45,593 nt of DNA from Candidatus Bathyarchaeota archaeon (lineage in GTDB: Archaea > Thermoproteota > Bathyarchaeia > Bathyarchaeales > DTEX01). The DNA is taken from positions 1-45,593 of the forward strand of contig JAGTQE010000011.1 of the NCBI GenBank assembly GCA_018396635.1, in the 5' to 3' direction. Under the pieces are notes generated by a model. The model had not been told where the DNA came from. It did not search any database and saw only the letters and a list, made by a program, of their open reading frames with translations. The position numbers and the translations under genes were made by a program. Positions 159 to 40,347 of the stretch are shown here, piece by piece. Numbering within the stretch: the first letter of the stretch is position 1; every line of letters begins with the position of its first letter.

Positions 159-2348
159 TCAGGCTTGTTTTTGGTCTTTAAGGAATTTCTTAGCGTATTC
201 GAGACATTTCTTCTTGAAGTTCTCGTAGTTCTCCGAAAACTCCTCCATAGTTTTTACTGTTGCACCATACTCCCGCCACTCGGAGGGTTTTAGACCCCTA
301 TAGCCATATTTTTCTGGGTTAGCGATGCCAACCTTTTTAAGGAGCTCGACTTGATCGGGTGTTAGTTCATATGCTTTAAGGAATTCTTCTGTGATGAGTT
401 TCCATCCGGAGCACATTATCCTCATAACCTTCTCGGAGTCCGCTTCATCGAAGACCGACTCCCTATATCTTTCAATATTAAAGTTTCTGCTTAAACTTCT
501 AAGTAGGACGTTCATTTGATGATTCGGGAATTCAGTATGCGTCATATGAGAGCTTGCGAGAGATAGGAGGGTTTCCTCAGGTTTCCTCTTTGAGGCCGGT
601 AGAACATCTATCCCTTGAAAAACGGCATCCGCCTGCTCTCTGCTGAGACCAAACTCAGACTGGATGTAAGATAGCCATTTGCCTACGTTTTGTGGGCTGA
701 AGAAGATTTCATAGACTCTATTTGTTATGAGGATCCCGCAGAACCCAATGGCCTCTTCAATCTTAGTTAAGTATTCGGCAACCATCTCTCTTGAGCTGTA
801 TGGAACGCCATATGATGCGAGGAACTCTATGAACGGCTCCTTATTAATTGGGCTGAGAAATCGCCTACTACAAAGCAACTTTATCCTCTCATCTAGGGAG
901 CCCTTCACCTTTATTTTATCCCATATACCCATTGATTCTGCAAGCCTTCTTAAAGCCTCCTCCTTATCTACAGCCTTCTCAAGAGCACTTCTCAACAACT
1001 CCTCCGCATGAACTTCCCTCAAGTGATCATCATGCCTGCCAACCATATTCGTCTCGTAGACCGTCGTTAAATGTATCCCCTTCTTAACCGCCTCAGCCCT
1101 CCCCCTTATCTTCGCCAGGATTAACTCAACCTCCTGCGCGACTGTAAATGTCACGGTATTGTTTGTGCCTATCCCTAAGCTCTCAAGTTTCCTAGTTAGC
1201 TCGATTGCTGCTGGCGAACTGCCAGCAACCTTAAAGACAATATTCGGTCTACCGCGCTCAATATTTGATGAATATCCCCACAGGAGATAATAGTCGTATT
1301 TTTTAAGGAATTCTTCTGCGTCAGCGTATATTTTTAAGGCTTCCTTAAGGCTCTTCTCGTAATCGTCTGCTATAGTTGGATTAAGCTGTAAGCTAACCAT
1401 ACCATGGCGCATGTTCGAAGCTATTGCTATAGGTCTAAAGATAACCAGGTTCGGCCAGATGCTAACTTCGGTGCCTTTTGCGGCAATATCATCAGCATAT
1501 ACTTCAGGGTTCTCTTTCAACGTCACCTCAAGCTCCTCAATAGCCGCCTTAAAGTCTGGACACAAGTCCTCGCCACCATAGCCCTCCCACAAGCTTGGAT
1601 CATCGTCATATGCAGCCGCCGCCAAAACAGGATTTGTTGAAACTTGGACAAAGCCTAGGTGTCTGAGCCATCTAAGGCCTAACGCATAGTCGTTTCCAAA
1701 TTTGCATAGACCTTCCTTACTGAGCCGATAGTATACATTGTTCCGGATACTTTCTTTAGCCGACTTTAGAAAGGACTCCATAATATTCTCCCAGTCAACA
1801 TTCTTTTCTAACTCTTCAGCTATGTAGGCAACCATAGCACCCGGCGGGCGATAGAAGCCGCTCATAACCTTCCTCATGTCTGCAAGGAATATCTTGATGG
1901 TTGCATGAGCTATTTCTGCTCTACCCAGGCTCCTGCGCTCCAGAGCCTCCATCTCCTTAATTGTCTCAACTATGCTAGTATAAGCCCTGTCTGCTTCAAG
2001 ATCAGAGAAACCAATAATCTCTTTCTCCAATCCAATAATGTTTAGGGCCATCTGAATCAAAGCATCATATATTCTCGCACATGTAAGAACCCTTCTTTCA
2101 TCTTTCAGTAAAGTTAAATTAGGGTTTTCAGCGAAAGCCTTATTGAATATTAAACTAAATTGTCTGTTAACCCCTGCAACAATGCTCTCCAGACTGCCGA
2201 CAATTTCTTTATTCAGCAGATGGTCCGCAGCCAGCTTAGTGTAACCTTTTACCGTTAGATGAACAATGTGATCTATGTGGTCAGAGCTAAACATTGGAAA
2301 ATCTAAGGGATCCCGCTTAGAATATAAAATTATTTTCTCCACATTCAT
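159..2348 (-). CDS. Large transaldolase-like protein
   Basis: The middle of this roughly 730-residue protein resembles the transaldolase TIM barrel. A VSTNP motif near residue 241 matches the family's TTNP strand, LQLNPT lies near 325, FKVAGS near 376 carries the lysine expected at the Schiff-base position, and NNTVTFTVAQ near 400 matches the following strand. Ordinary transaldolases have 210-330 residues. Here about 230 residues precede the barrel and about 290 follow it, and I recognise no domain in either. The N-terminal part looks helical and charged. I placed the start at the ATG at 2348 because GGTGG lies 8 bases upstream; an in-frame GTG at 2360 lacks such a site. The gene is divergent from an aldolase/dehydratase pair across about 110 bases, which suggests shared control in sugar metabolism. 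Its substrate is unknown. The family call is fairly sure, but transaldolase activity is inferred. Confidence 0.75.
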   Translation of the reverse strand: MNVEKIILYSKRDPLDFPMFSSDHIDHIVHLTVKGYTKLAADHLLNKEIVGSLESIVAGVNRQFSLIFNKAFAENPNLTLLKDERRVLTCARIYDALIQMALNIIGLEKEIIGFSDLEADRAYTSIVETIKEMEALERRSLGRAEIAHATIKIFLADMRKVMSGFYRPPGAMVAYIAEELEKNVDWENIMESFLKSAKESIRNNVYYRLSKEGLCKFGNDYALGLRWLRHLGFVQVSTNPVLAAAAYDDDPSLWEGYGGEDLCPDFKAAIEELEVTLKENPEVYADDIAAKGTEVSIWPNLVIFRPIAIASNMRHGMVSLQLNPTIADDYEKSLKEALKIYADAEEFLKKYDYYLLWGYSSNIERGRPNIVFKVAGSSPAAIELTRKLESLGIGTNNTVTFTVAQEVELILAKIRGRAEAVKKGIHLTTVYETNMVGRHDDHLREVHAEELLRSALEKAVDKEEALRRLAESMGIWDKIKVKGSLDERIKLLCSRRFLSPINKEPFIEFLASYGVPYSSREMVAEYLTKIEEAIGFCGILITNRVYEIFFSPQNVGKWLSYIQSEFGLSREQADAVFQGIDVLPASKRKPEETLLSLASSHMTHTEFPNHQMNVLLRSLSRNFNIERYRESVFDEADSEKVMRIMCSGWKLITEEFLKAYELTPDQVELLKKVGIANPEKYGYRGLKPSEWREYGATVKTMEEFSENYENFKKKCLEYAKKFLKDQKQA

Positions 2349-2471: not shown

Positions 2472-3392
2472 TTGAGGGGTGGTTTACTGAGAAAACTTAA
2501 GAATTTAAAAGGCATCGTTCCCTCCTTACACACGATAACTTCCTCAGATGGCGAGATATGCGAGGAAGATATTAGGTCTGAGGTTAGGTTTAATATTGAG
2601 AGCGGCGTGCACGGCTTAGCTGCAGGGTTAGGTGCTGGAGAGTTCTATAAGTTCTCTGATGATGAGAGGAAAAAGCTGTTTAAGATAGTTGTCGATGAGG
2701 CTAATGGAAAGGTTCCTGTTTTGGTTGGAGCTTGGCATACTGGAACCGAGCCTGCCCTAATGCTGGCTAAGTATGCTGAAGATATTGGAGCTGACGGCAT
2801 AGTGCTGATACCGCCGTTCTACAATAGAGTAGAGTCAAAACTCTACCTCTATGAACACTTCTCCAAGATAGCGAGAAGCATTAATCTTCCAGTAATGATA
2901 CAGGACAACGAGGATGTTTTTGGAGTACATATATGCCCTTTCCTCTATAGGAGACTAGTTGAGGAGAACGTTAACATCTATCTAGTTAAGATAGAGGGAT
3001 CTGGAGCACTAGAGAAGATGAAGATCTTGAAAGAAATGTTGGGAGATGAAATAATTATTTTCGGCGGGTCTGCCGCAAGATTTTTCTACGAAGAGATGGC
3101 TGTTGGAGCCAGTGGAAATATTCCCGACGCTTGCTTACCGGATCTACTTGTAGATGTTTTCAACAAGTATAAAAGTGGCGATATTGATGGCTCAAAGAAA
3201 ACTTATGAGAAATTTAAGCGCTGGCTTAACTTCCTGCTTTTACATCCGCTCCAAGCGGCCGAAATAGAGAAGGAGACGCTTAGATTGAGGGGGGTCATTA
3301 AGTGCTCTCATACAAGAGGACCTAAAGTTGGCTTGAGTGAGGAAGATAAGCAAGCTTTAAAAAGAATATTGGAAGAGATGGGTGTGATTTAG
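2472..3392 (+). CDS. DapA-family aldolase/lyase (possible keto-deoxy acid aldolase)
   Basis: This is a class I aldolase of the dihydrodipicolinate synthase/N-acetylneuraminate lyase family, with a typical length of 306 residues. Lys173 in the strand LVKIEGS is the expected Schiff-base lysine and PPFYN has Tyr117. Two signature sites differ from DapA: the GTTGE loop reads GLGAGEF (residues 52-58), and the strand that normally carries the catalytic YN tyrosine reads QDNED (144-148). True dihydrodipicolinate synthase is therefore unlikely. The IlvD/Edd dehydratase follows within 6 bases, so cleavage or dehydration of a 2-keto-3-deoxy sugar acid is the natural guess. The start used is TTG 2472. 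GAGGGGTGG lies inside the first codons, so translation may begin a few codons later, for example at CTG 2487. Confidence 0.85.
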   Translation: MRGGLLRKLKNLKGIVPSLHTITSSDGEICEEDIRSEVRFNIESGVHGLAAGLGAGEFYKFSDDERKKLFKIVVDEANGKVPVLVGAWHTGTEPALMLAKYAEDIGADGIVLIPPFYNRVESKLYLYEHFSKIARSINLPVMIQDNEDVFGVHICPFLYRRLVEENVNIYLVKIEGSGALEKMKILKEMLGDEIIIFGGSAARFFYEEMAVGASGNIPDACLPDLLVDVFNKYKSGDIDGSKKTYEKFKRWLNFLLLHPLQAAEIEKETLRLRGVIKCSHTRGPKVGLSEEDKQALKRILEEMGVI

Positions 3393-3397
3393 GAGCG

Positions 3398-5077
3398 TTG
3401 AGTAAAATGAGGTTAAGAAGCGAGAAGATGGGTTGGGTTGTTAGGGGTTTAATTAGGTCTGGAGGATACGATTACGAGGTTGGAAAACCCATAGTGGAAA
3501 TAGTTAATACTTGGAGCGAATGGAATCCTGGCCATAATCATTTAAGGATGGTTGCTGAAGCAGTTAAGCGCGGGGTTTTATCCGCTGGCGGCTTTCCATT
3601 AGAATACAATACGCTCTCATTATGTCCGGGTCAAAGTCTTCCAAACCGCAATCTACTTGCCCTAGAGGTTGAGTCAATCATTTGTGGTGTGGGTGGAAAG
3701 GAAGACCCGGCACCATATGCTGAACCAGCTGATGCTGTAGTATTTATCTGTAGCTGCGATAAGGATATCCCGGCTCTTTTAATGGCTGCGGCTCGAATAA
3801 ACTTGCCCTCAATTTTTGTTTTGGGCGGAGCAATGCTTCCAGGCAAATTTAAGGGGGAAGATGTTGTATGCTGCACTGATGCGCAGCGATTAGAGCGCGA
3901 CCTCAGGGCTGGAATAATTACGGAGGAGGAATGGAGAGAATTTCGGGAATGTGTTTTTCCATGTTCAGGAGCCTGTGGGCCGATGGGAACTGCAAATACG
4001 ATGCAATGTATGGCTGAAGCTCTCGGTATGGCGTTACCTGGCTCCGCCTGTTCTCCAGCTATACTAGCTGAAACATATAGGAGGGCTGAGGAAAGCGGGC
4101 GGAAGGTTATGGAGTTACTTAAAAATGATATTAGGCCACGAGACATAATGACTGAGGAGTCTTTAGAGAACGCCATAAAAGTTCTCATGGCTATTGGAGG
4201 ATCAACTAACGCTATAATCCACCTCATAGCCATAGCGCATGAATTGGACATAAAATTACCGCTGGAAAAATTTGATGAAATAAGTAGAAAGACCCCCTTC
4301 TTAGTTGATGTTAAGCCTAACGGCCGTTATCCTGCTGTAGATTTTCATCGAGCTGGTGGGGTGCCAGCCTTAATGAAGCAGATGGAACCAATAATCAACC
4401 TTGACGTCTTAACTGTTACCGGTAAAACGCTTAAAGAGAATCTGGCAAACGTTCAGGTCAAGAACGCTAACATAATTAGACCTCTAAATCAGCCATTTTT
4501 ACGTGAAGGCGGCATAGCCATACTTAAGGGGAATCTGGCTCCTAGGGGGGCAGTCATTAAGCATTCCGCCTCAATAGATCGTAGGCTACTTCACCATAAG
4601 GGGCCAGCGGTTGTCTTTAACTCTCCTGAAGAGGCTTATAGGCACTTGTTAAGGGAGGATATAGAGATCACCGAGGATCATGTTTTAATTCTCAGATATC
4701 AGGGACCCAAAGCCGCATGCATGCCTGAAACCGGCGCACTGCCCATACCAACAGTACTAGCTAAGAGAGGCGTTAAGGATATTGTGAGAATAACTGATGG
4801 GAGAATGAGCGGCACCCAATTCGGAACAATAGTTCTACACGTTTCACCTGAGGCATATGTTGGCGGCCCGTTAGCCGCCGTGGAGAATGGCGACACGGTG
4901 GAGCTTGATCTTACACGAAGGCTATTGGAGGTCAAATTGACAGACAAGCAGATTAAAGAAAGGTTAGAGCGATGGACTCCGCCTGAACCCAGATACAATT
5001 ATAAGAGAGGTCCTCACGCCCTCTGGTTTAATTTCTGCACGCAAGCTGATGAGGGATGCATCTATCCATTCATGTAG
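3398..5077 (+). CDS. IlvD/Edd-family dehydratase, probably sugar-acid dehydratase
   Basis: The 559 residues match the Fe-S dehydratase family of dihydroxyacid, phosphogluconate and aldonate dehydratases. CSCDKD at 118-123 contains the Cys-Asp-Lys site (lysine usually carbamylated, binding magnesium). CSGACGPMGTANTM follows near 189, with Cys193 placed as a cluster ligand, and the C-terminal swivelling domain has GRMSGTQFG. The first family cysteine, normally in an NPCN-like motif after NTWSE, is glycine here (NPGH near 43-46); Cys76 in LSLCPGQ is nearby. The gene follows the DapA-family gene in the same transcript, which favours a sugar acid over the valine/isoleucine intermediate. AGGAG at 3391 fits ATG 3407 (11 bases) better than TTG 3398 (2 bases), so either start is possible. 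A T-rich tract follows the stop. Confidence 0.88.
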   Translation: MSKMRLRSEKMGWVVRGLIRSGGYDYEVGKPIVEIVNTWSEWNPGHNHLRMVAEAVKRGVLSAGGFPLEYNTLSLCPGQSLPNRNLLALEVESIICGVGGKEDPAPYAEPADAVVFICSCDKDIPALLMAAARINLPSIFVLGGAMLPGKFKGEDVVCCTDAQRLERDLRAGIITEEEWREFRECVFPCSGACGPMGTANTMQCMAEALGMALPGSACSPAILAETYRRAEESGRKVMELLKNDIRPRDIMTEESLENAIKVLMAIGGSTNAIIHLIAIAHELDIKLPLEKFDEISRKTPFLVDVKPNGRYPAVDFHRAGGVPALMKQMEPIINLDVLTVTGKTLKENLANVQVKNANIIRPLNQPFLREGGIAILKGNLAPRGAVIKHSASIDRRLLHHKGPAVVFNSPEEAYRHLLREDIEITEDHVLILRYQGPKAACMPETGALPIPTVLAKRGVKDIVRITDGRMSGTQFGTIVLHVSPEAYVGGPLAAVENGDTVELDLTRRLLEVKLTDKQIKERLERWTPPEPRYNYKRGPHALWFNFCTQADEGCIYPFM

Positions 5078-5216: not shown

Positions 5217-6728
5217 ATGAAAAATGATCGCTATATTATGGCTTTAGATGAGGGGACGACTAGCGCTAGGGCGGTTATATTTGATCGCGAGCCGAGCATT
5301 GTGGGTTCAGGTCAACAGGAGTTTTCTCAGATATATCCACGCCCAGGATGGGTTGAACATGATCCTGAGGAGGTATGGGCTGCCCAATTAACGGCTATTA
5401 AAAATGCTCTCAAATCTGCACGTATAGGACCTGAAAAGGTTGCTGCTATAGGAGTAACGAATCAAAGAGAGACCATTATACTTTGGGATAAAACAACTGG
5501 TAAACCAGTATACAATGCTGTAGTTTGGCAGTGTAGGAGAACTGCTGAGCTTGTTGATGAGCTTAAGCGCAACTACTGGGACACATTTAAGAGTAAAACT
5601 GGCTTAATTCCAGATTCATATTTCTCAGGACCAAAGGTTAAGTGGCTTCTAGAGAATGTTCCCGGCTTAAGGGAAAGAGCGCTTAAAGGTGAAATACTAT
5701 TCGGTACGGTAGATACATTTATTATCTGGAGGCTTACTGGCGGAAGAGTGCACGCCATAGATTATAGTAACGCTTCCAGAACCTTGCTCTTCAATATCCA
5801 CAAACTGTGCTGGGATCAGGAACTGCTGGAAATTTTGGGCGTGCCTGAGAGTATGCTGCCTGAGCCAAAGCCATCAAGTCAAGTTTACGGTTATACTGAA
5901 CCAAAATTACTCGGCGCCAGCATTCCGATATCTGGCGATATAGGTGATCAACAGGCAGCATTATTTGGGCAAGCAGCTTTCAAAGAAGGCATGGCTAAAT
6001 GTACTTACGGAACAGGGAGTTTCTTGCTGGTCAATATCGGTGACACTCCACGCGAAACTGGAAAACTCCTAACTACTGTGGCATGGTGTATGGGAGGAAA
6101 GGTAACGTATGCCTTAGAGGGAAGCATTTTTATATCTGGCGCAGCCATCCAGTGGCTTAAAGACTCTCTAGGACTCATACGTGACCTATCTGAAATAGAG
6201 GTTTTAGCGTCATCCGTCAGAGGCAGCGAAGGTGTATTTTTTGTGCCGGCATTGGTTGGGCTTGGAGCCCCATATTGGGATCAGTATGCTAGAGGGTTGA
6301 TCATAGGCTTAACGAGAGGCGCCGGCCGAGCGCATATAGCTAGGGCTGTGCTTGAGTCAATAGCTTATTTAACGCGTGACGTTATTGAGGCTGTAAGAGA
6401 AGCTGGTGTGGAGATTAGCGAGCTTAGGGTGGATGGCGGAGCCTCAAAAAATAACCTTTTAATGCAGATTCAGGCGGATATTTTGGGCTTAAGGATCGTT
6501 AGGCCAAGAATTCTTGAGACCACGAGTTTGGGAGCGGCTTACATGGCTGGTTTAGCTGTAGGATACTGGAGCAGTCTATCGGAGATATCCTCTATGTGGA
6601 GGGCGGAAAGGATCTTTGAGCCGACTATGGGTAGTTGTGAAAGAAATAGAATGTATATGGTTTGGAAAGAAGCCGTAAAGAGATCTTTAAGCTGGGCTAA
6701 GGTGCTTAAAGAAGCCGGCTTAGAATAA
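5217..6728 (+). CDS. glpK: Glycerol kinase
   Basis: ATP-dependent phosphorylation of glycerol to sn-glycerol 3-phosphate in the cytoplasm. The 503 residues fit the FGGY family length. DEGTTS (11-16) is the N-terminal phosphate-binding motif, the glycerol-contact region has TNQRET and WQCRRT, and [12 protein letters not shown] (240-251) holds the catalytic aspartate. TYGTGSF and DGGASKNN are the C-terminal nucleotide-binding motifs. The ATG has GGGAG about 9 bases upstream. The gene begins a compact operon with the FAD glycerol-3-phosphate dehydrogenase genes, so the role is glycerol catabolism. Archaeal membrane lipids use glycerol 1-phosphate, so this product would feed central metabolism rather than lipid synthesis. 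No glycerol facilitator gene is adjacent. Confidence 0.96.
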
Positions 6729-6745: not shown

Positions 6746-8251
6746 ATGCGCAGAGAACCTATACGTGTGGCCATAATTGGGGCTGGAATTATAGGCGCTA
6801 GCATATCAAGAGTCCTTTCCATGTTTGAGGACTTTGAAGTTATTTTAGTAGAGAAGGAGGCGGATGTGGGCTGGGGGGTTAGTAAAGCTAATACTGGCAT
6901 AATTCATGCAGGCTATGACGATGAGCCGGAGCTATATCCATTGAGGGCGAAATTATGCGTTAGAGGAAATGAGATATGGCGTAAATGGGCTGATGAGCTC
7001 GATATACCAGTCAGATGGTGTGGCTCCTTAGCTTTAGCATTTAACGAGGATGAGGTGAATATCCTTAAAACCCTCCTTTCTAGAGGATTACGTAACGGCG
7101 TTAGCGGCTTGAAGATCGTTGAGGCAGAGGATATTAAGGCTCTAGAGCCGAATGCATCAAGGGATGCTGTTGCAGCGCTTTGGGCTCCAACAGCTGGTCA
7201 AATATCACCTTGGGATGCTGTAATTGCGCTTGTTGAGAATAGCGTTGCGAATGGCGTAAAATTGTATTTGTCTACTGAGGTTAAGGGCATAAGAATAAAA
7301 GATGGCAAGATCTTGGGCTTAGAGACGAACAGAGGTTTTTTAAGGGCTGATTGGGTTATTAACGCTTCGGGAATATATGCTGATAAAATAGCTGAAATGG
7401 TCGGGATTAGAGGGTATAGGATAAGGCCTAGGAAGGGCGAATATATAATCTTCGATAAGGAGGCTGAGCCGAAAGTCACTAGGGTGCTATTTCCAACTCC
7501 AACGCCAATATCTAAAGGAGTTGTCGTAACGACGACTGTTGACGGAAATCTTATGATCGGGCCGAGCGCAGAAGACTTGAACGAAGATTTGAGGGAGGAG
7601 CGAAGCAATACTAAGAGCGGCTTAGATTATGTTTGGGCATCGGCCTCTAAGCTTGTGGATAGGCTTCCGTCCAAAAGCATGATTATAAGGTTCTTTGCCG
7701 GCTTAAGGCCCGAGCCCACTGGGGGAGACTTTATAGTTAGGGGATACGATGAGGTTTACGGTTTCATTGACGCTGCGGGGATGCGTTCGCCGGGGTTAAC
7801 GGCGGCTCCGGCGGTAGCCCACATGGTCTCAGAAATATTGAGGTCACTTATAGATCGTGAGCTTAAGCGGAAGGATAGCTGGAATCCTTATAGAAAGCGC
7901 ATGATTAGGTTCTCGGAGCTAACGCACAGCGAAAGGAGTGCTTTAATTAGTAAAGATCCTAGGTATGGCCGAATAGTATGCGTTGACGAGATGGTAACTG
8001 AGATGGAGGTAATTGAGGCTATTAAGAGGGGGGCAACCACAATAGACGGCATTAAGTTCAGGACCAGGGCATGTATGGGTAAATGCCAAGGATCCTCATG
8101 TATGCATAAGATAGCGTTAATATTGTCCAGGGAGCTTGGCATACCGCTCTGGAGAGTCTCAGTTAAAGGTCCTGGAACCGAGATAGGCATAGGAGACATT
8201 AAAGTGTTGTTTGAGGAGGGAGATCAGTGCGGGAGATGCAGAGAGACCTAA
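6746..8251 (+). CDS. glpA: FAD-dependent glycerol-3-phosphate dehydrogenase with BFD-like domain
   Basis: Oxidises glycerol 3-phosphate to dihydroxyacetone phosphate. An N-terminal FAD-binding motif (GAGIIGASIS, from residue 11) opens a DAO-fold domain with NTGIIHAGYDDEPELYP. The C-terminal 100 residues form a BFD-like [2Fe-2S] domain with Cys412, Cys443, Cys447 and Cys452, as in anaerobic GlpA proteins. I see no membrane segment. It starts 17 bases after the kinase stop with a GGAGGG-type site, and its 3' end overlaps the next gene by 25 bases. Electrons probably pass through the cluster to the oxidoreductase encoded next, since no GlpC-like membrane anchor is present. The family call is strong; the electron route is inferred. 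Confidence 0.93.
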   Translation: MRREPIRVAIIGAGIIGASISRVLSMFEDFEVILVEKEADVGWGVSKANTGIIHAGYDDEPELYPLRAKLCVRGNEIWRKWADELDIPVRWCGSLALAFNEDEVNILKTLLSRGLRNGVSGLKIVEAEDIKALEPNASRDAVAALWAPTAGQISPWDAVIALVENSVANGVKLYLSTEVKGIRIKDGKILGLETNRGFLRADWVINASGIYADKIAEMVGIRGYRIRPRKGEYIIFDKEAEPKVTRVLFPTPTPISKGVVVTTTVDGNLMIGPSAEDLNEDLREERSNTKSGLDYVWASASKLVDRLPSKSMIIRFFAGLRPEPTGGDFIVRGYDEVYGFIDAAGMRSPGLTAAPAVAHMVSEILRSLIDRELKRKDSWNPYRKRMIRFSELTHSERSALISKDPRYGRIVCVDEMVTEMEVIEAIKRGATTIDGIKFRTRACMGKCQGSSCMHKIALILSRELGIPLWRVSVKGPGTEIGIGDIKVLFEEGDQCGRCRET

Positions 8252-39333: not shown

Positions 39334-40347
39334 GTGATTAATACGTGTAAACCTAGAGTTTATGTTACTAGGGAGATCCCTGAAAGGGGGCTTAAGAAAA
39401 TTATGGAGCGCTTTGACACTGAAGTTTGGCCGGAGTATGGTCCACCGCCTAAGCAGGTTATAATTGAAAAAGCTAGGGATGCCGATGCTCTAGTAACTCT
39501 TCTCTCAGATAAAATTGACGCCGAGATTTTTGACGCCGCACCCAAGCTAAAGATAGTTGCTCAGATGGCTGTTGGCTTCGATAATATAGATGTTGAGGAG
39601 GCTACTAGAAGAGGAATATATGTAACTAATACGCCCGGCGTTTTAACTGAAACAACCGCTGATTTTGCATGGGCCCTTCTAATGGCTATCGCTAGAAGAG
39701 TTGTCGAAGCAGATAGATATGTGCGCGAAGGTAAATGGAAGGTAGGCTGGCATCCAAGCATGTTACTTGGAAGGGATGTTTATGGAGCCACATTAGGAAT
39801 AATTGGCGTGGGAAGAATAGGTTCAGCCGTCGCCAGAAGGGCTAAATGCTTCAACATGAGAATCCTATATTATGATGTTGTGCGGAACCCGCAAATAGAG
39901 AAGGAAACAGGCGCAACCTTCGTCGATCTAGACACTTTATTAAGAGAGTCTGATTTCATAAGCGTGCATGTTCCCTTAACAAAGGAAACCTACCATTTAA
40001 TTAATGCTGAGAGACTGAAGTTTGTCAAAAAGACAGCATACCTGATAAATACTTCAAGGGGCCCAGTGGTTGATGAAAAAGCTTTGTACGAGGCGTTAAA
40101 AGAAGGAAGGCTTGCTGGGGCAGCATTAGATGTGTTTGAGCAGGAGCCGCTGCCTACAGATAGCCCGTTACTCAGGCTAGACAATGTAATTTTAACACCA
40201 CATATTGCTAGCGCTAGCTATGAGACGCGTTCAAGAATGGCTGAAATGGTTGCGGAAAATCTGATAGCGTTCTTTGAGGGGAAAGTTCCTCCAAATCTTG
40301 TTAACCCAGATGTAGTAAAGGTGAGACCTCCTCCAGCCCAGCTCTAG
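39334..40347 (+). CDS. D-2-hydroxyacid dehydrogenase (glyoxylate/hydroxypyruvate reductase type)
   Basis: NAD(P)-dependent D-isomer dehydrogenase of 337 residues. [17 protein letters not shown] near 150 is the nucleotide-binding glycine motif, and catalytic Arg ([10 protein letters not shown] near 235), Glu in VFEQEPL near 267 and His in LTPHIASAS near 285 are present. Closest in look to glycerate dehydrogenase and glyoxylate reductase of thermophilic Archaea. Start GTG 39334 overlaps its own GGGGTGAT, so the true start is uncertain. It is followed by the alcohol dehydrogenase 12 bases later, so the pair is likely co-transcribed. Confidence 0.92.

Follow-up and report, generated by a model that had tools for sequence, protein, structure and literature searches.

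This locus raises the question of what a transaldolase-like protein of unusual size contributes to the metabolism of an archaeon, and on which sugar it acts. The window, that is, the whole 45,593-nucleotide stretch of DNA analysed, is contig C3 of the 1.45-Mb genome of a Candidatus Bathyarchaeota archaeon, whose closest relatives are Bathyarchaeota MAGs and, further off, a genome labelled Thermofilaceae. The gene is an uninterrupted open reading frame at 159-2360 on the minus strand, a placement absent from the original prediction; an ATG start at 2348 gives a product of 729 aa and a GTG start at 2360 one of 733 aa, the stop codon lies at 159-161, and the plus strand of 159-2348 is stop-rich, except for a 94-aa chance reading frame. 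The gene and its parts are as follows.

159-2348, minus strand: gene for the enlarged protein of the transaldolase family, its full length kept in 45 homologues (679-755 aa)
1737-2348, minus strand: N-terminal extension, residues 1-204, predicted to be all-helical and matching no known family
225-1736, minus strand: transaldolase-type catalytic region, residues 205-708 including an insert (Pfam TAL_FSA, hhalign, Foldseek)
744-1013, minus strand: helical insert, residues ~446-535, missing in bacterial relatives (hhalign gap against a 406-aa Shinella protein)

Residues 292-454 match the Pfam TAL_FSA family (PF00923; E=3.4e-12, 46.7 bits against a cut-off of 27), as do all 16 of the relatives first aligned (E<=0.1). 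The NCBIfam models for classical transaldolases (TIGR00874, TIGR00876 and PRK03343) give at best 29.4 bits against a cut-off of 367, the model for the fructose-6-phosphate aldolase (FSA)/small transaldolase group (TIGR00875) finds no match at E<=1, and the 729-aa protein departs in size from the ~215-aa single-barrel FSA subunit. By the features tested it is thus a member of the transaldolase superfamily, yet one that lies outside both the classical transaldolase and the FSA subfamilies. It is the sole TAL_FSA protein in its own genome and one of a conserved family, single-copy and about 680-755 aa in length, with same-length homologues in 19 of the 257 genomes of the class and 53 carriers (∼13%) among 398 Thermoproteota genomes, two further genomes with weak local matches (55 matched in all) having been left out of the count. 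Searches of plasmid collections did not find the long form and returned short bacterial relatives only. In one homologue (G437:C2:210667-212787) the gene match contains a single in-frame TAG, which could reflect assembly error, a pseudogene or recoding.

The extent of the catalytic region was defined by profile alignment. Two bacterial proteins annotated as 'transaldolase family protein', WP_241949277 from Shinella (406 aa) and WP_045530995 from Clavibacter (374 aa), align with residues 236-708 (hhalign probability 99.4, E=3.6e-21), and four classical transaldolases align with residues 234-431 (97.7%, 1.5e-12). Because the alignment reaches from 236 to 708, most of the 290 C-terminal residues constitute the rest of the transaldolase domain together with the ∼90-residue insert; the comparison with the short relatives also aligns the C-terminal GLxPxEWxxFGAxxKTMxEF with GMKPEEFSRFGAFAATAAEF. 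The core originally assigned to residues 241-410 does cover strands 2-5 but is longer, and of the flanks described as lacking any family, this holds for the first ∼200 residues, whereas the C-terminal 290 are, besides the insert, mostly the last barrel strands and C-terminus. Conservation across 45 sequences is in agreement with this extent, being 0.70 for residues 201-445 and 536-620 and 0.51-0.55 in the N-terminus, insert and tail. An AF2 model built on an eight-sequence alignment (pTM 0.75, mean pLDDT 74; a single-sequence model with pLDDT 39 was set aside) has low confidence at 214-260 and 582-635, segments too uncertain for the model alone to display a full (beta/alpha)8 barrel. Its top five Foldseek matches in the PDB are nevertheless all transaldolases (TM score, target-normalized, 0.50-0.62), namely Corynebacterium glutamicum 3r5e (E=2e-4) and Neisseria gonorrhoeae entries, with 3clm and 7bbx among the top hits. 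When solved structures were compared with the family profile instead, 3r5e was a weak match only, and matches of the I-CreI type were judged to be due to chance.

No solved relative of the N-terminal domain was found by sequence search, nor does the domain resemble the remainder of the protein. Its invariant or nearly invariant residues are D23, H24, G35, L39, D42, G106, E108 and E134, and it carries a motif of the form S-x-DH-x-x-H...G...LAADHLL, in which D23, H24 and D42 are nearly invariant.

The residues that would form the active site, all on the minus strand and located by alignment, are distributed as follows.

1689-1691: D220, invariant in 45/45, likely counterpart of the transaldolase strand-1 Asp
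1629-1640: STNP, residues 237-240, strand 2 (TTNP of transaldolases)
1386-1388: Q321, invariant, sitting where classical transaldolases have the acid/base Glu
1230-1232: K373, putative Schiff-base lysine of strand 4, 45/45, at the place of the IKIPAT lysine in alignments with classical transaldolases
1155-1163: N396-N397-T398, strand 5, N396 and T398 invariant
1035-1052: TNMxGR, residues 433-438, strand 6, with T433, M435, G437 and R438 invariant
585-593: S586-K587-R588, invariant in 45/45, proposed equivalent of the anion-binding Ser/Arg on strand 7
516-536: TEFPNHQ, residues 605-611, putative strand 8

Among the 83 positions that are invariant in 45 full or near-full sequences (679-755 aa) are D220, T238, N239, Q321, K373, N396, T398, T433, R438, S586 and R588, none of which is substituted in any member (one aligned sequence has masked letters at STNP), and also P240, S319, M435, G437, K587, T605, P608, G685 and W691. 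The motifs that had been read from the DNA were all recovered (STNP at 237-240, LQLNP at 320-324, FKVAGS at 372-377 and NNTVTFTVAQ at 396-405), and the assignment of this unusually large protein to the transaldolase family, with a Schiff-base lysine, is upheld by the Pfam match and by K373, whose loss from close homologues would have spoken against it and which is present in 45/45. D220 is presumably the equivalent of TalB D17, and R438 is the counterpart of the Arg that transaldolases have in SRV/GRI, M435 standing in place of a Phe/Tyr; the strand-6 Arg of TalB has a role in anion binding. By comparison with TalB and the Clavibacter sequence, S586 and R588 are probably equivalent to the anion-binding Ser/Arg pair of strand 7. 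The classical catalytic Glu of strand 3 was not found: VSIEVDP of classical enzymes becomes VSLQLNP in the oversized family, with Gln321 in 45/45. On the strength of these conserved residues, the window protein is predicted to be a catalytically complete, enlarged transaldolase-superfamily enzyme.

Of characterized enzymes, the mycobacterial-type transaldolases (TIGR00876/PRK03343; C. glutamicum 3r5e, matched in fold at E=2e-4) share the Schiff-base lysine, TNP, N-x-T and the strand-6 Arg but are 350-360 aa long and have Glu at the acid/base position where the oversized family has Gln, and the window protein scores far below their NCBIfam cut-offs; we know of no association of that group with UxaE or Iol proteins. 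The Shinella and Clavibacter relatives, at about 25% identity, have the same Gln for Glu replacement (GQVDP, VQTDP), the N-x-T of strand 5, a T-x-M-x-x-R strand 6 and a C-terminal G(L/M)xxE(E/D)FxxFGA, and differ in having neither the N-terminal extension of ∼200 aa nor the insert of ∼90 aa, the only extra parts of the archaeal protein. Their genes, too, lie in sugar-catabolism clusters. On Shinella sp. plasmid p1 (L060:5809-7029) the gene is found inside an operon for a 2-oxoacid-dehydrogenase-type complex (E1 alpha/beta, E2, E3), close to genes for triose-phosphate isomerase and a class II aldolase, and on Clavibacter plasmid pCI3 (L066:6863-7987) it is a few genes from iolB/iolD. These short proteins may share the unusual chemistry of the oversized family.

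The company that the gene keeps in other genomes was examined by comparing the neighbourhoods of 40 homologues, with NCBIfam used to resolve the neighbours. Recurrent neighbours are UxaE (tagaturonate epimerase), a Gfo/Idh dehydrogenase, a Zn-dehydrogenase, two xylose-isomerase-like TIM barrels, a 2-hydroxyacid dehydrogenase and KduI/IolB. UxaE occurs in 38 of the 398 Thermoproteota genomes, and the oversized transaldolase is present in 35 of the 38 (Fisher p=2e-33; at genus level 20/8/2/133, p=3e-17), although the genomes are related, so that the p-values overstate independence. Of the carriers, 26/53 have IolN at a score of at least 200 bits, as against 0/27 non-carriers. The UxaE homologues of archaea are in many cases divergent (∼73-108 bits), and we therefore infer their substrate as well; one homologue (G393:C1:319935-320663) has an in-frame TGA, attributable to assembly error, a pseudogene or recoding. 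UxaE is missing in 18/53 carriers, 10 of which have a KduI/IolB-family gene. Tried as an alternative partner, KduI/IolB gave a significant association that is weaker than that of UxaE (p=3e-6) and partly complementary to it. In three Bathyarchaeia genomes (L069, L070 and L071, from G168, G176 and G179) a KduI/IolB gene lies directly beside the transaldolase-like gene (TIGR04378 223 bits against 205 in G168), which suggests that KduI/IolB may serve as partner isomerase in genomes that lack UxaE. In two distant lineages (L068 in G170; L095 and L096 in G304 and G261) the gene is flanked by several URO-D-family genes, possibly encoding corrinoid methyltransferases.

In G460, genes for an ABC transporter, IolG-like protein, IolM, IolN, IolO (on the opposite strand), the transaldolase-like protein, UxaE, a glyoxylate/hydroxypyruvate reductase and a TIM barrel follow one another in an operon-like array that includes the ABC sugar transporter genes, and the transaldolase gene overlaps at its end with that of UxaE. 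The UxaE match is strong here (567 bits), and scores against cut-offs are 545/450 for IolM, 302/245 for IolN, 270/300 for the IolO-like protein and 488/455 for the reductase. G539 has the same set (IolG 372/355, IolM 521/450, IolN 241/245, IolO 223/300, reductase 600/455), so that IolG/M/N/O and UxaE genes lie beside the transaldolase-like gene in both genomes and in part in G564 (IolG, IolM, UxaE and reductase), G531 and G505 (partial sets). Such inositol clusters occur in both main branches of the family tree, G460 being basal to the branch of the window under midpoint rooting. The same upper enzymes, IolG-IolM-IolN-IolO, make up the inositol route of Thermotoga maritima, in which the product of IolO is D-tagaturonate (Rodionova 2013, as cited in PMC12632266). 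T. maritima, which served as the control in searches for UxaC, UxuA and Mannitol_dh_C, carries genes for all three; in their place the archaeal clusters have the transaldolase-like enzyme and a hydroxypyruvate/glyoxylate reductase. Family searches, on which all statements of gene absence here rest, did not find the fructuronate/tagaturonate reductase family (PF08125) in 51/53 carriers, UxuA in 47/53 or UxaC in 53/53, and hexuronate catabolism fed by UxaC was rejected as a source of substrate because UxaC is absent from all carriers.

The window copy itself has a less revealing setting, with the following genes on the plus strand.

2472-3392: DapA/KDG-aldolase-family gene, divergent from the transaldolase gene (PF00701; TIGR00674 below cut-off)
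3398-5077: IlvD/Edd-family dehydratase gene of the sugar-acid dehydratase type (PF00920; NF004784 626 bits against 539)
5217-6728: glycerol kinase GlpK (TIGR01311 697.6 bits against 590)
39334-40347: GhrB-type glyoxylate/hydroxypyruvate reductase (NF009714 555 bits against 455), 62% identical to the copy in the G539 operon

The divergent aldolase/dehydratase pair described originally is therefore real, consisting of a DapA-type aldolase and an IlvD-type dehydratase; the search for a shared neighbourhood that had been proposed found the context of the window in one close relative (L067), whereas the informative context sits in other lineages. IolG/M/N/O and UxaE do not surround the window copy. 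UxaE is nonetheless encoded in the same genome (539 bits, contig C31), and the distant reductase of the window falls in the same cluster as the reductases of the inositol operons. Family searches of this genome did not find the upper inositol genes or KduI/IolB; IolN reaches 72 bits only and iol genes are not near UxaE. Its six UxuA matches, paralogues of one another, would be compatible with a KDG route in this organism. The genes for the DapA-type aldolase, the IlvD-type dehydratase and glycerol metabolism may serve another pathway than the transaldolase does. GlpK, 2.9 kb from the start of the transaldolase gene, could phosphorylate dihydroxyacetone if that is the product. Beside it, a FAD protein (6746-8251) is similar to type 2 glycerol-3-phosphate oxidase, at 279 bits against a cut-off of 460, and the pair is kept in L067. 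On contig C31, about 53 kb in (L127:12645-14315), an IolO/hydroxypyruvate-isomerase-like gene adjoins a Gfo/Idh gene; as a UxuA paralogue (C31:50305-51213) lies within a few kb, this may be a second sugar-acid cluster.

Taken together, the best explanation, with a probability of about 0.5, is that the protein is an enlarged transaldolase-superfamily enzyme acting downstream of UxaE, whose substrate and products, like its action as aldolase or as transaldolase, we infer: it would cleave a ketohexuronate, of which D-fructuronate is the likeliest, to give a dihydroxyacetone unit plus tartronate semialdehyde. D-fructuronate, which is made by UxaE, is a ketose of fructose configuration that bears a carboxylate at C6, and it has the C3/C4 stereochemistry used by transaldolase and FSA chemistry. 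In the proposed mechanism, K373 would react with the substrate's keto group to form a Schiff base, the C3-C4 bond would be cut and tartronate semialdehyde would leave, and the dihydroxyacetone unit would then be released or passed to an acceptor such as glyceraldehyde 3-phosphate. DhaK and DhaL (dihydroxyacetone kinase subunits) adjoin UxaE and the transaldolase gene in G531, so release of dihydroxyacetone is favoured there, and as Dak1 (dihydroxyacetone kinase) is missing in 50/53 carriers, transfer to glyceraldehyde 3-phosphate or the use of glycerol kinase is favoured elsewhere. Tartronate semialdehyde is an isomer of hydroxypyruvate, into which an isomerase-like TIM-barrel protein might convert it (a dedicated hydroxypyruvate isomerase is weakly suggested, at 49.9 bits against a cut-off of 353), and hydroxypyruvate, the presumed substrate of the hydroxypyruvate/glyoxylate reductase of the cluster, would be reduced to glycerate by the GhrB-type enzyme. 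In many Thermoproteota the transaldolase-like step could then end a myo-inositol pathway of IolG-IolM-IolN-IolO-UxaE, replacing the branch of reductase, dehydratase and KDG enzymes of which, to our knowledge, all described routes beyond tagaturonate/fructuronate are composed.

UxaE itself is a tagaturonate-fructuronate epimerase (as cited in PMC3750489), and the sulfofructose transaldolase of sulfoglycolysis splits a ketohexose with an anionic C6 by transfer of a dihydroxyacetone unit (PMC11659671). The latter is the nearest working analogy, although it is an enzyme of FSA size (∼220 aa; 8c4i) with weak fold similarity to the window protein, and its substrate is a sulfonate rather than the proposed carboxylate; the oversized transaldolase most likely works in the same manner on a carboxylate-bearing ketose. 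No enzyme of this kind turned up when the open literature was searched for a transaldolase connected with inositol, with fructuronate or with tartronate semialdehyde. A new activity, that of a D-fructuronate/tagaturonate transaldolase or aldolase, and with it a new lower branch of archaeal inositol/hexuronate catabolism in which a 3+3 cut bypasses the reductase, dehydratase and KDG steps, is put forward tentatively, at somewhat short of even odds.

Other readings of the same genes were weighed against cleavage of a ketohexuronate. If the protein were instead an aldolase for some other compound in this sugar-acid network (5-keto-L-gluconate, a 2-keto-3-deoxy acid or one of the deoxy-sugar acids of the IolB route), this would account for the IolB/KduI gene adjoining the transaldolase-like gene in Bathyarchaeia (the TIGR04378 match given above), for the dehydratase/aldolase pair from which the window copy diverges and for the bacterial relative near iolB/iolD. 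This reading is nonetheless doubtful, since the co-occurrence with UxaE is much stronger, the window already holds a DapA-family aldolase, and 2-keto-3-deoxy acids are split by pyruvate-type aldolases whereas transaldolase chemistry needs a 1,3-dihydroxyketone donor. The 2-keto-3-deoxy acids and pentoses originally suggested as substrates are likewise not where the comparative evidence points, which is to UxaE and IolG/M/N/O, that is, to ketohexuronates derived from inositol. There is a slim chance that the UxaE-like protein is a ketohexose(-phosphate) 4-epimerase and its partner an FSA-type aldolase for fructose or tagatose (or their phosphates) rather than uronates: many archaeal UxaE homologues are divergent, and in its acid/base Gln the family resembles FSA, which presumably has Gln there as well, but the strong UxaE match of G460 lies within a cluster of IolG/M/N/O genes, a route known to lead to tagaturonate.

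An ordinary transaldolase of the non-oxidative pentose phosphate pathway (S7P + GAP = E4P + F6P) with an added N-terminal domain would fit the Pfam, NCBIfam and fold assignments to the transaldolase family, the apparent conservation of anion-binding residues, and the position of the protein as the sole TAL_FSA member of a genome that has transketolase, an enzyme whose presence also shows that this archaeon, originally suggested to lack the normal pentose pathway perhaps, is not devoid of pentose-pathway genes. Transketolase_N is, however, undetected in 29/53 carriers, including the complete genomes G319, G352, G387 and G397, and a pentose-pathway role was rejected as the general one for this reason; the gene is present in merely ∼13% of Thermoproteota, inositol/uronate genes cluster and co-occur with it, and the acid/base Glu is Gln in every member. 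This reading is accordingly improbable, and the members of the oversized family do not, as a rule, have the look of pentose-pathway enzymes, whereas the original suspicion of sugar-acid chemistry in preference to the normal pentose pathway is supported by gene context and co-occurrence. Loss of catalysis in favour of a regulatory or structural role, which the large size and an N-terminal domain without a family might suggest, is very hard to reconcile with catalytic residues that are all invariant in 45 diverse members.

If cleavage of an inositol-derived ketohexuronate is correct, the missing lower half of inositol/ketouronate degradation would be identified in uncultivated and hyperthermophilic Thermoproteota, and a family that automatic annotation would call 'transaldolase' would be explained. 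Its presence in an archaeal genome would then be poor evidence of a pentose phosphate pathway. Splitting of an inositol-derived sugar acid would represent a new use of the transaldolase family, in which a carboxylate-bearing donor would join the sulfonate-bearing donor of sulfoglycolysis.
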